Below, in pieces: positions 9,141 through 48,563 of a stretch of 64,000 nt of DNA. Within the stretch, counting starts at the first letter, position 1; each line of letters begins with the position of its first letter. The notes below the pieces were generated by a model. That model was not told the origin of the DNA. It saw only the letters and a program-made list of their open reading frames with translations, and searched no databases. The translations under genes and the position numbers were made by a program. The stretch comes from Streptomyces sp. NRRL S-646 (GTDB lineage: Bacteria > Actinomycetota > Actinomycetes > Streptomycetales > Streptomycetaceae), in contig NZ_JODC01000005.1 in assembly GCF_000720765.1 (NCBI RefSeq), forward strand, positions 620,001 through 684,000, written 5' to 3'.

Positions 9141-9695
9141 TCAGAACAGCGGCTCGGGCAGGACCCCCTCCAACGCGAGCAGCTTGCGCTTGGTCTCCAG
9201 CCCGCCCCCGAACCCGCCGATGCCCCCGTCGCTCTCCACCACCCGGTGGCAGGGCACGACGACCGGCAGCGGATTGGACCCCATCGCCATCCCCACCGCC
9301 TGGGCCGCGCCCGGCTGACCCACCCGCCCGGCCAGGTCGCCGTAGCCCACGACCGCGCCGTACGGCACCCCCGAGGCCAACTCGCGCAGCACCTGCCGGT
9401 TGAAGCCCGAGATCAGCGACCAGTCCAGCGGCAGCTCGAAGTCGCGCCGCTCGCCCGCGAAGTACGCCTCGACCTGCCGTATCGCCACGGCCAGCAGGGG
9501 CGAGTCGGGTGCCTCGACGGGCTCGCGGCCCAGCCGGGACGCCAGCCGCTCGAGCGCCTTGTCACGCACCCCGTCCGTGGCGTGGAACACGACGTTGACC
9601 AGGCCCTCGCGGGTCGCGGCCAGCAGCAGCGGACCGATCCCGGTGCCGACCACCGCCCACACGACCTGCTGTTCGTACTGCCCATCGCTGTCCAT
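9141..9695 (-). CDS. ogt: Methylated-DNA-[protein]-cysteine S-methyltransferase
   Basis: A 184-residue suicide repair protein that transfers the methyl group from O6-methylguanine in DNA to its own cysteine. The active-site motif PCHRVV is at about residue 147, preceded by the helix-turn-helix/wing region (LRELASGVPYGAVVGYGDLAGRVGQPGAAQAVG) and followed by GGIGGFGGGLETKRKLLALE. The ATG at 9695 lies 6 nt from the -10 of a PafBC-type DNA-damage promoter, so the mRNA is probably leaderless. No Shine-Dalgarno is present. Confidence 0.93.
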   Translation of the reverse strand: MDSDGQYEQQVVWAVVGTGIGPLLLAATREGLVNVVFHATDGVRDKALERLASRLGREPVEAPDSPLLAVAIRQVEAYFAGERRDFELPLDWSLISGFNRQVLRELASGVPYGAVVGYGDLAGRVGQPGAAQAVGMAMGSNPLPVVVPCHRVVESDGGIGGFGGGLETKRKLLALEGVLPEPLF

Positions 9696-9701
9696 GCGCC
9701 C

Positions 9702-9724
9702 ACCGTACGACCCGCCACTGACAT
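9702..9724 (-). promoter_or_regulatory. PafBC-type DNA-damage promoter of ogt
   Basis: On the minus strand, ATGTCAGTG (9724-9716), 8 bp, then TACGGT (9707-9702). This matches the RecA-NDp consensus TTGTCRGTG-N8-TAnnnT at 8 of 9 positions in the upstream element and all required -10 positions. The expected +1 coincides with the ogt ATG. Confidence 0.75.
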
Positions 9725-11774: not shown

Positions 11775-11797
11775 TTGTCAGTGCCGGGTCGTACGGT
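11775..11797 (+). promoter_or_regulatory. PafBC-type DNA-damage promoter of uvrB
   Basis: TTGTCAGTG (11775-11783), 8 bp, TACGGT (11792-11797). This is a perfect match to the RecA-NDp consensus. The ATG of uvrB at 11805 is 7 nt past the -10, so transcription should start at or next to the start codon. Confidence 0.85.
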
Positions 11798-26193: not shown

Positions 26194-26216
26194 TTGTCAG
26201 TGGCTCCCCCTAGTCT
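26194..26216 (+). promoter_or_regulatory. PafBC-type DNA-damage promoter of uvrA
   Basis: TTGTCAGTG (26194-26202), 8 bp, TAGTCT (26211-26216): a perfect RecA-NDp consensus match. The implied +1 near 26223 leaves a leader of about 55 nt before the GTG at 26278. Confidence 0.88.
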
Positions 26217-44904: not shown

Positions 44905-45062
44905 GCAGCGACGCACACAGCACGTACATTCCGCACGTAAGGCCCCATGTTCGGTACGCGCAGCTGAGCGCGGCCTATCATGGGGCTTGCGTCTAGGTGT
45001 GGGGGGTGTAACTCCAATCACTGGACGCGCGTTGGGCCTTACGTAGACTGAGGCGCTCGCAA

Positions 45063-45087
45063 CGAAGCGAAACGCCGACTCGCTTCG
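45063..45087. promoter_or_regulatory. Inverted repeat upstream of the RbpA-like gene
   Basis: CGAAGCGA and TCGCTTCG with a 9-nt spacer, about 30 bp before the GTG at 45116. It could be a leader hairpin or an operator. Confidence 0.35.
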
Positions 45088-45115
45088 CGGCACCATCACG
45101 CAGGGAGTTACGACC

Positions 45116-45451
45116 GTGGCAAGTGGCAACGCGATCCGAGGAAGCCGGGTCGGGGCGGGGCCGATGGGCGAGGCCGAGCGCGGCGAGTCCGCGCCGCGTC
45201 TGCGCATCTCCTTCTGGTGCTCGAACGGGCACGAGACGCAGCCCAGCTTCGCCAGCGACGCGCAGGTTCCCGAGACCTGGGACTGCCCGCGCTGCGGCTT
45301 CCCCGCCGGACAGGACCGGGACAACCCGCCGGACCCGCCGCGCACCGAGCCCTACAAGACGCACCTCGCGTACGTACGGGAACGGCGCAGTGACGCGGAC
45401 GGCGAGGCGATCCTCGCCGAGGCGCTCGCCAAACTGCGGGGCGAGATCTAG
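45116..45451 (+). CDS. RbpA-family RNA polymerase-binding protein
   Basis: A 111-residue protein matching the actinobacterial RbpA family, which binds RNA polymerase and the principal sigma factor and stabilises the open complex. The N-terminal basic region (AIRGSRVG) is followed by a zinc-like core FWCSNGHETQPSFASDAQVPETWDCPRCGFPA and a C-terminal sigma-interaction-like helix (HLAYVRERRSDADGEAILAEALAKLRGE). It differs from my recollection of S. coelicolor RbpA in core details, so it may be the second paralogue. The GTG at 45116 is 6 nt after GGGAG. Confidence 0.75.
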   Translation: MASGNAIRGSRVGAGPMGEAERGESAPRLRISFWCSNGHETQPSFASDAQVPETWDCPRCGFPAGQDRDNPPDPPRTEPYKTHLAYVRERRSDADGEAILAEALAKLRGEI

Positions 45452-45529
45452 GAGTTGAGAGCCGGCCGGGCACCGAGGGGTGTCTGGCCGGAGCTGTTTC
45501 GTACCCGGCCCCGGCCGCCTCCGGACCGA

Positions 45530-45552
45530 TTGTCAGTGGTGCCCTCTACGGT
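45530..45552 (+). promoter_or_regulatory. PafBC-type DNA-damage promoter of an MFS exporter
   Basis: TTGTCAGTG (45530-45538), 8 bp, TACGGT (45547-45552): a perfect consensus match. The implied +1 near 45559 gives a 24-nt leader carrying a GAGGGGGAG ribosome site before the GTG at 45583. Confidence 0.82.
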
Positions 45553-45582
45553 TTGTGCATCGGCAGATCGTGAGGGGGAGTT

Positions 45583-46851
45583 GTGGCGACGGTCGAGGAG
45601 GCGGGCAGTCTTGCGCCCGCGTGGCGTGGGGGATTCGGGCTGCTGTGGACGGCCGCGGTGGTGTCCCGGTTCGGAGACGCGCTGCGAGGTGCGGCGCTGC
45701 CCCTGCTTGCCGCTTCCCTGACCGACCGCCCCCTGCTCATCGCGTCCGTGACCGCCTGCGGCTATCTGCCCTGGATCGTCTTCGGACTCCTCGGCGGCGC
45801 GGTCGCGGACCGGGTGGACCAGCGGCGCGCCATGTGGACGGTGGATGCGGTACGAGGAGTGCTCGTCGCCGCCTTCGCCGTGGCCGTCGCCCTCGGTCAG
45901 GCCTCGATCGCGCTGCTCATCGCGCTCGCCTTCGTGCTGACCACTCTCCAGACGCTCTTCGACAACGCTTCCACGGCCCTGCTGCCCGCCCTGGTGGACC
46001 AGGGGGCGCTCGGCAGTGCCAATGCCCGGCTGATGACGGGACAGCAGATCGCGGGCGGCCTGATAGGGGCACCGGCGGTGCCGCTGCTGCTCGCCGCCGG
46101 GGCCGCCGTTCCCTTCGCGGCCGACGCCGGGACCTTCCTGGTGGCCGCCGCGCTGGTCGCCTCGCTGCGCACCGCGGCACCCGAGCGCGGGCCGAAACCG
46201 GCGGGAAGCACCCTGCGCCGAGAGATCGCGGAGGGGCTGCGCACCCTGTGGCGCGACCGGGCCCTGCGCGGACTGTGCGCCGCGACCGCCCTGTGCAACA
46301 TCGGCATGGGCGCTCTCATCGCCACCTTGGTCGTCCTGGTGACCGGCTGGCTGGACGCCGGCACCACCGGATACGCGGCGGCCACCACCGCCTACACCGT
46401 CGGCGGCCTGGTCGGGGGAGCCGCGAACCGGCAGGTCACCGCCCGACTCGGGCCCATGCGGGCCGTACTGCTCGCCGGCCTGGTGCAGATAGGCGCCCTC
46501 GTCGTCATGGGCAGTGTGCGCAGCCTGACCGCGATGGCGGCATCACTCGCGGTGTTCGGCTTCATGGGAATGGTGTGGAACGTCAACACGACCACGCTGA
46601 TGCAGCAGCGCACCCCCGCCGACCTGCTCGGCCGGGTCAGCTCCGCCTTCCGTACCCTGGCCGTCGCCGGGGCTCCGTCGGGCGCGCTGCTCGGCGGCGC
46701 GGTCGCCACCGCCTGGGGGCTGAACACGCCGGCCCTGCTCACCGCCGCCTTCTTCGTTCTGTCGGTCCTCGCCCTGATACCTGCCCGCAAGCCGGACGTA
46801 CCTGTGGTTGCGCCGCACGGCGACACCACGACCGCTCATGTCACGCGCTGA
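45583..46851 (+). CDS. MFS transporter (MFS_3 / EntS-like), DNA-damage promoter
   Basis: A 422-residue twelve-helix facilitator of the MFS_3 type (siderophore or drug exporters such as EntS). Features are WTAAVVSRFGDALRGAALPLLAASLT at helix 1, GGAVADRVDQRRAMWTVDAVRG in the loop between helices 2 and 3, TLFDNASTALLPALVDQGALGSANARLM and RVSSAFRTLAVAGAPSGALLGGAVA. The GTG at 45583 has a strong GAGGGGGAG ribosome site. Its promoter is of the PafBC type, so the exporter is predicted to be induced by DNA damage, an unexpected link. Cargo is unknown. Confidence 0.85.
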   Translation: MATVEEAGSLAPAWRGGFGLLWTAAVVSRFGDALRGAALPLLAASLTDRPLLIASVTACGYLPWIVFGLLGGAVADRVDQRRAMWTVDAVRGVLVAAFAVAVALGQASIALLIALAFVLTTLQTLFDNASTALLPALVDQGALGSANARLMTGQQIAGGLIGAPAVPLLLAAGAAVPFAADAGTFLVAAALVASLRTAAPERGPKPAGSTLRREIAEGLRTLWRDRALRGLCAATALCNIGMGALIATLVVLVTGWLDAGTTGYAAATTAYTVGGLVGGAANRQVTARLGPMRAVLLAGLVQIGALVVMGSVRSLTAMAASLAVFGFMGMVWNVNTTTLMQQRTPADLLGRVSSAFRTLAVAGAPSGALLGGAVATAWGLNTPALLTAAFFVLSVLALIPARKPDVPVVAPHGDTTTAHVTR

Positions 46852-46907: not shown

Positions 46908-48563
46908 ATGAACGCAGACGTCCGTAACAGACTCAACCAGACGCCCGAGTGGACCGCGCTGGCCAAGCACCGCGAGGAGCTCGGCGAAGTGCGGCTGCGG
47001 GACCTATTCGCCGCCGACCCGGGACGCGGCGCCGGGTACACACTCCAGGTCGGCGACCTGTACATCGACTACTCCAAGCACCTCGTCACCGACGAGACCC
47101 TGCGGCTGCTGCGCGAGCTGGCCGCCGCCACCGACGTCTTCGGCCTGCGGGACGCCATGTTCCGCGGCGAGAAGATCAACACGACCGAGGATCGCGCCGT
47201 ACTGCACACCGCGCTGCGCGCCCCGCGTGACGCGGTGATCGAGGTCGACGGGGAGAACGTCGTCCCGGGTGTGCACGCGGTGCTCGACAAGATGGCCGAG
47301 TTCGCCGAGCGGGTCCGCTCCGGCGCCTGGACGGGCCACACCGGCAAGCGCATCAAGAATGTCGTCAACATCGGCATCGGCGGCTCCGACCTGGGCCCGG
47401 CGATGGCGTACGAGGTGCTGCGCAGCTACACCGACCGCGACCTCACGGTCCGCTTCGTGTCGAACGTCGACGGCGCCGACCTGCACGAGGCGATCCGTGA
47501 CCTGGACGCGGCGGAGACCCTGTTCGTCATCGCCTCCAAGACCTTCACCACCATCGAGACGATCACAAACGCGACCTCGGCGCGCGAGTGGCTGCTCGGT
47601 GAGCTGAAAGCCGGTCAGGAGGCCGTCGCCCAGCACTTCGTGGCGCTGTCGACCAACGCCGGGAAGGTGTCGGAGTTCGGCATCGACACGGCCAACATGT
47701 TCGAGTTCTGGGACTGGGTCGGCGGCCGGTACTCGTACGACTCGGCGATCGGGCTGGCGCTGATGATCGCCATCGGCCCGGATCGCTTCCGGGAGATGCT
47801 CGACGGGTTCCGGCTGGTGGACGAGCACTTCAGGTCGGCGCCCGCGGAGTCCAACGTGCCGTTGCTCCTTGGCCTGTTGGGCGTCTGGTACGGCAACTTC
47901 CATGACGCCCAGTCGCATGCGGTGCTGCCGTACAGCCACTACCTCTCCAAGTTCACCGCCTATCTGCAGCAGCTGGACATGGAGTCCAACGGCAAGTGCG
48001 TGGGCCGGGACGGGCAGGAGGTGGAGTGGCAGACGGGGCCGGTGGTGTGGGGCACGCCGGGCACCAACGGCCAGCACGCCTACTACCAGCTGATCCACCA
48101 GGGCACGAAGCTGATCCCGGCGGACTTCATCGGGTTCGCCGAGCCGGTGGCCGAGCTGAGCGACGGGCTCAAGGCGCAGCACGACCTGCTGATGGCGAAC
48201 TTCTTCGCCCAGACGCAGGCCCTCGCCTTCGGCAAGACACCGGACGAGGTGCGGGCCGAGGGCGTGCCGGAGGAGCTGGTGGCGCACAAGACGTTCAAGG
48301 GCAATCACCCGACGACGACGATCCTGGCGCGCGAGCTGACGCCGTCCGTGCTGGGCCAGTTGGTCGCGCTGTACGAGCACAAGGTGTTCGTGCAGGGCGC
48401 GGTGTGGAACATCGACTCCTTCGACCAGTGGGGCGTCGAGCTCGGCAAGGTGCTGGCCAAGCGGGTCGAGCCCGCACTGACCGAGGGGGCGGCGGTGGCG
48501 GGCCTGGACGAGTCCAGCAAGGCGCTGGTCGCCAAGTACCGGGAGTTGCGGGGCCGGGCGTAA
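46908..48563 (+). CDS. pgi: Glucose-6-phosphate isomerase
   Basis: A 551-residue phosphoglucose isomerase (glucose 6-phosphate to fructose 6-phosphate). Conserved blocks are [71 protein letters not shown] and [18 protein letters not shown] with the catalytic residues, ending [19 protein letters not shown] upstream of the ATG. Transcribed opposite to the pgl-opcA-zwf-tal operon, with which it shares the glucose 6-phosphate branch point. Confidence 0.97.

Follow-up and report, generated by a model that had tools for sequence, protein, structure and literature searches.

An MFS exporter gene of Streptomyces carries a conserved promoter element of the PafBC type and is a predicted member of a DNA-damage regulon

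We analysed a stretch of 64,000 nucleotides from Streptomyces sp. NRRL S-646 (the window), in which a gene for an exporter of the major facilitator superfamily (MFS; 45583..46851, + strand; GTG start, 422 aa) has forward-strand neighbours on both sides. Upstream lies a gene for an RbpA-family RNA polymerase-binding protein (45116..45451, +; Pfam PF13397, E 6.8e-43), followed by a hairpin with a 13-bp stem (45462..45491, +). The 46-nt hairpin stretch has a folding energy of −31.7 kcal/mol (z −5.3), a value matched by 0 of 200 shuffles, and the hairpin may terminate the RbpA-family transcript, which would make the exporter a separate unit. Downstream, pgi (46908..48563, +; NF001211, 825 bits over a cut-off of 492) begins 56 nt after the exporter, and read-through from the exporter into pgi is possible. 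Given this strong hairpin on the upstream side and pgi downstream, the exporter probably has a promoter of its own.

A candidate for that promoter is the 23-mer TTGTCAGTGGTGCCCTCTACGGT (45530-45552, +), whose last T is separated by 30 nt from the GTG at 45583. It consists of an upstream box of the PafBC/RecA-NDp type, identified by sequence match (TTGTCAGTG; 45530..45538, +), a spacer of 8 nt (GTGCCCTC; 45539..45546, +) and the −10 hexamer TACGGT (45547..45552, +). The sequence-only reading that preceded this work had placed TTGTCAGTG-N8-TACGGT at exactly this distance before the exporter, and the site is there. All parts of the regulon's element, that is, a TTGTCRGTG box, an 8-nt spacer and TAN3T, are found at the exporter; TTGTCRGTG-N8-TAN3T is reportedly the consensus of RecA-NDp promoters given by Gamulin in 2004. 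The predicted placement is suited to transcription of the exporter, with a likely ribosome-binding site, recognized by inspection, between element and start codon (GAGGGGGAG; 45572..45580, +).

The window contains two copies of the exact form TTGTCAGTG-N8-TACGGT (at 11775 and 45530), compared with none in 100 dinucleotide shuffles. Its other copy lies before uvrB (11775..11797, +), 7 nt from the ATG, and uvrA carries the same element (26194..26216, +) with TAGTCT as the −10 hexamer, 49 nt from its predicted start. The exporter promoter had been described as identical in form to those of uvrA and uvrB; this is correct for uvrB, which shares TACGGT, but not for uvrA, although the uvrA and uvrB sites alike fit the common pattern TTGTCRGTG-N8-TAN3T. 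An ogt-type methylated-DNA methyltransferase gene (9141..9695, −) is preceded by a one-mismatch element, ATGTCAGTG-N8-TACGGT (9702..9724, −), 6 nt from its ATG. Counting this last one, the window holds four sites of the element type.

Genome-wide, TTGTCRGTG-N8-TAN3T is found 38 times in the 10.7-Mb assembly and the reversed pattern not at all. The same search in 101 same-genus genomes, our own included, gave 2564 matches (9 to 44 per genome), whereas the reversal gave 9. In the wider class, a match was present in only 150 of 196 genomes, and many genomes outside the genus had between 0 and 3. We rejected a chance motif on the basis of the empty shuffles in the window and the rarity of the reversed pattern in genome and genus. 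An in-frame ATG or GTG follows the last T by 5–9 nt at 22 of the 38 sites, recA and uvrB among them; this count takes one open reading frame per site, chosen by third-position G+C, so that some gene assignments may err, and at three sites (L010, L017 and L022) the chosen frame lies more than 250 nt away. Such spacing is the geometry that leaderless promoters would give, and transferring it to the exporter site we expect transcription to start near 45559.

Pfam and NCBIfam scans assigned a repair or replication role to 11 of the 38 chosen reading frames, several of them with scores under the NCBIfam cut-offs. These encode RecA, UvrA, UvrB, DnaX, a uracil-DNA glycosylase family protein, a RadA-type protein, an AlkZ-like glycosylase, a DinG/YoaA-like helicase, a RecD2-like protein, a Hel308-like helicase and a RarA/MgsA-type ATPase. 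Beyond these 11, ThyX and ribosomal protein S6 are also behind the element. Transporters account for three of the 38, namely the present MFS exporter, a TcmA-like MFS pump (L004, contig 5) and an ABC exporter (L116, contig 31), and many of the remaining frames are without a clear damage connection. One of the 38 sites (L003) precedes a gene with a weak SWIM zinc-finger match.

The element at the two additional exporters is conserved as well, but more loosely than at the present one. A site with at most one mismatch was found in 23 of 30 loci for the TcmA-like pump and in 25 of 30 for the ABC exporter, own genome included in each case; the 30 are the most similar of 50 and of 46 matching genomes, respectively, from 61 genomes searched. 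The genome also encodes the expected regulator. Nine proteins match the WYL domain, and two encoded by adjacent genes are PafB and PafC: PafC matches one chain of structure 7p5x (E 1.4e-50), PafB matches the other, annotated as a 'transcriptional regulator-like protein' (E 4.4e-57), and each also matches the PafBC fusion 6sj9. With PafB alone as the query, a homologue was present in 26 of 26 chosen genomes. According to passages of PMC11804915, single-stranded DNA activates mycobacterial PafBC, which works at a −26 motif through sigma adaptation.

The exporter itself is an MFS protein by its scores over the Pfam gathering thresholds of MFS_1 (86.9 over 33.4 bits) and MFS_3 (79.2 over 27 bits). 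Every subfamily or drug-specific model listed in the NCBIfam scan remained below its own cut-off, including the H+ antiporter subfamily TIGR00900 (174.5 bits against a curated cut-off of 319.6) and the EntS equivalog (65.8 bits against 324). Of the earlier label 'EntS-like facilitator', the MFS family therefore stands and EntS does not, and we rejected orthology to EntS on this score. The protein resembles MFS_3/TIGR00900-type exporters such as Tet(V), Tap, Mef(A) and EntS in its MFS_1 and MFS_3 domains and in a partial match to each model, but differs from them in falling under every NCBIfam cut-off listed. A sequence search of solved structures returned no relative at E 0.001. Over the 43 orthologue rows compared, which include one short fragment, 69 positions are near-invariant, including D76, R77 and R82.

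We consider it possible, at a little under an even chance, that the exporter expels a genotoxin as its putative function and cargo class. A competing account accepts a real damage-regulated promoter but has the exporter carry a normal metabolite, such as a siderophore, a nucleoside or a signal, with protection arising indirectly, for example through less reactive iron. EntS is among the better-scoring models and no drug-specific model reaches its cut-off for the exporter, both of which suit a metabolite; the EntS score falls short of its cut-off too, however, and toxic-compound efflux appears to fit better with a TcmA-like MFS pump and an ABC exporter that bear the same element. We regard the metabolite account as possible but well short of an even chance. 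Damage-regulon membership combined with a protective exporter of unspecified cargo is a combination that we hold to be likely.

Conservation of the element was assessed at the orthologous loci. Among named Streptomyces loci (the best 80 of 141 relatives, of which S. guryensis is closest at 95% identity), all 80 had the site, 77 in exact form and 3 with a single mismatch. Further same-genus orthologues, drawn from a 151-genome sample that includes our own genome and may overlap in species with the named loci, had the site in 51 of 53 cases (exact in 48, with a single mismatch in 3) and lacked it in 2, and five additional same-genus loci comprised four exact sites and one with a single mismatch. 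The counts exclude the window itself (L128) and a repeat of an already sampled genome (L200, the same genome as L163); the 51 include two broken copies that keep the site, one with a frame break (L180) and one with an internal deletion (L181). A scan of other Streptomyces genomes had been proposed by the sequence-only reading, which named absence of the motif from all orthologous loci as counting against it; the scan found the motif kept.

The conservation is concentrated on the element. In 127 other distinct intergenic regions compared with the window, identity averaged 98.4% in the core columns (the box and the fixed −10 positions), 89% in the spacer together with the free −10 positions, and 64% in the flanks. 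Genus g108 of the same family has an exact site in five of five orthologues (64–67% identity), while a sixth genome of that genus (G515) yielded only a 41% homologue without the site. Among 21 distant MFS homologues (31–43% identity; grouped with these is L217, the best match in its genome at 41%), none had a site with fewer than three mismatches, and one (L197) had exactly three. In a tree of 67 proteins, which is midpoint-rooted, carries a long-branch warning and omits L176 (whose piece before an in-frame stop is shorter than 230 residues), the site-bearing orthologues together with L178 and L179 form one group with 100/100 support. L178 and L179 are apparently intact sister copies with 56% identity that lack the upstream box.

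A family of the same class, here termed f16, extends the association to a different locus. It contains 13 exporter orthologues (55–65% identity), and in the stretches examined, some of them ended by contig ends, neither the RbpA-family gene nor pgi lies beside them. Upstream, 2 of the 13 have the exact element, 10 have TTGTCGGAC-N8-TAN3T and one has CTGTCGGAG, in most cases with a start codon 7–8 nt on. Seven f16 genomes contain 24 instances of the pattern TTGTCGGAC-N8-TAN3T and none of its reversal, compared with 2 and 0 instances of the pattern in two same-genus genomes; the pattern is seemingly a lineage-specific form of the element (L229–L254, mostly in f16 genomes). Of the 24 variant sites, 5 lie before uvrA, 2 before radA-like genes and 5 before the exporter, with the other 12 preceding different or unassigned genes; one uvrA and one of the two radA-like genes were assigned by Pfam scan and the remaining uvrA genes by near-identical first residues. 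That repair genes and the exporter share the variant argues for common regulation, and we regard this as the strongest single argument. In an f16 genome, a weak SWIM zinc-finger gene is again found behind the variant (L248). In the window's own genome, a match of the TTGTCGGAC type (L242; contig 24, 67683-67705, −), conceivably a second promoter, lies 168 nt before the recA site. In the class-wide scan with TTGTCRGTG-N8-TAN3T, two genomes have unusually many matches (63 in G264 and 119 in G282). In G264, the 23-mer TTGTCGGTGCCCGCCCGTAGGGT is common to 10 of the 20 matches listed and looks like a dispersed repeat, which calls for caution in counting sites in f16.

These data bear on whether the site could instead be a housekeeping promoter, or that of another sigma factor, that only resembles the element. 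The two divergent orthologues L178 and L179 would suit such a promoter, as they retain TACGGT alone, a few nucleotides before an ATG. A 9-nt box held at a fixed 8-nt spacing, the enrichment of the pattern, the repair genes among its targets and, in another family, a variant that stands alike before uvrA, radA-like genes and the exporter all speak against it, and we consider a mere resemblance very unlikely.

A further possibility is that the promoter serves pgi, with the exporter as a passenger and damage boosting glucose-6-phosphate isomerase through read-through, for which the short distance between the two genes would be favourable. Within the 151-genome sample, 97 genomes had no listed orthologue of the exporter, so that it does not count among the core components of the response. 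Twenty of the 97 were checked. In all 20, the RbpA-family gene adjoins pgi with no exporter between them, and in 17 the sequence read before pgi, up to 1.5 kb, contains neither an exact nor a one-mismatch site. This argues that the exporter, and not pgi, is the selected target. Of the three exceptions, G030 (exact site) and G014 (one mismatch) hold close copies of the 23-mer of the window, which look like remains of gene loss; the third (G007) has TTGTCGGTG-N8-TACGGT 84 nt before pgi and no exporter, as a promoter for pgi would predict. The sites between the RbpA-family gene and pgi in exporter-less genomes are L315, L318 and L333. Given that the site is absent along with the exporter in 17 of 20 genomes and that the f16 exporters carry the element with no pgi found alongside, we consider pgi as the true target improbable, slightly more so than a mere resemblance.

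Streptomyces recA is also under LexA control, and SOS boxes take the palindromic forms CGAAC-N4-GTTCG and GAAC-N4-GTTC. LexA control of the exporter in place of PafBC is nevertheless extremely unlikely, as a scan of 45001-46000 for these two palindromes found neither; weaker or asymmetric boxes are also known, some of them in passages of PMC9380542.

We conclude that the exporter very probably belongs to the RecA/LexA-independent, PafBC-type DNA-damage regulon, as judged from its upstream sequence. The comparison supports this proposal of the sequence-only reading through the enrichment of the element at repair genes, the conservation of the footprint, the joint presence and absence of site and exporter, and the recurrence of the pair at a different locus in another family. 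On the mechanism described in the mycobacterial papers, damage would generate single-stranded DNA, which would activate PafBC; PafBC would in turn enable the housekeeping RNA polymerase to employ the TTGTCAGTG box as a substitute for a −35 element. The exporter, sitting behind its own promoter of this PafBC (RecA-NDp) type, would then be co-produced with UvrA, UvrB, RecA, RadA and others, and its likely task would be to keep down the amount in the cell of a small molecule that damages DNA or is associated with damage.

The system resembles mycobacterial RecA-NDp/PafBC promoters in the form TTGTCRGTG-N8-TAN3T, in its repair-gene targets and in adjacent PafB and PafC, and differs in that the element here lies on an exporter and that the regulation is predicted from sequence. 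The element had been introduced as one that drives damage induction in mycobacteria, to which it is not confined. Passages of PMC2375139 cite Ahel 2002 for the same element at the promoter of recA in S. rimosus, along with Studholme et al. on the motif in Streptomyces, and report 67 S. coelicolor genes with recA-type motifs found by SIGffRid, the gene list being in the supplement. The S. coelicolor macrodomain gene SCO6735 also lies behind the element and is reported as UV-inducible in passages of PMC5087735. As those sources describe them, S. rimosus recA and SCO6735 share the element with the exporter in Streptomyces but encode a recombinase and an ADP-ribose hydrolase, and no transporter; the SIGffRid set, likewise obtained by computation with related motifs, includes repair genes. 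Passages of PMC9380542 describe a first search that pointed to a lack of conservation of the M. smegmatis PafBC motif in S. venezuelae. Our genus-wide site counts disagree with this for the genus at large.

In the open-access literature, we recognized no paper that places the exporter in a damage regulon, the 67-gene SIGffRid list lying outside this comparison. The motif has long been known in Streptomyces, and the exporter would very likely be a new addition to a known regulon. The locus tag SCO1943, which we take to be the S. coelicolor orthologue, appeared in 0 open-access papers, a result that says little because the tag is a guess.

We tentatively propose that in Streptomyces and in a distant actinobacterial family DNA repair is coupled to an efflux arm, in which damage read by PafBC would switch on an MFS exporter that expels the cell's own or competitors' genotoxins without a drug-specific regulator. 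In Streptomyces, this coupling may take in the second MFS pump and the ABC exporter, a suggestion that we advance with equal reserve. Passages of PMC9380542 state that the existence of a RecA/LexA-independent damage response in Streptomyces remains to be shown; the site counts, the named targets and the variant in another family open such a response to direct testing. Should the exporters prove responsive, major antibiotic-producing bacteria would in effect be using their sensing of damage to detect drugs as well, with a bearing on self-resistance and on unexplored genotoxin-making clusters. The conserved pairing of element and exporter suggests that antibiotic makers may switch on efflux alongside DNA repair when their DNA is damaged.
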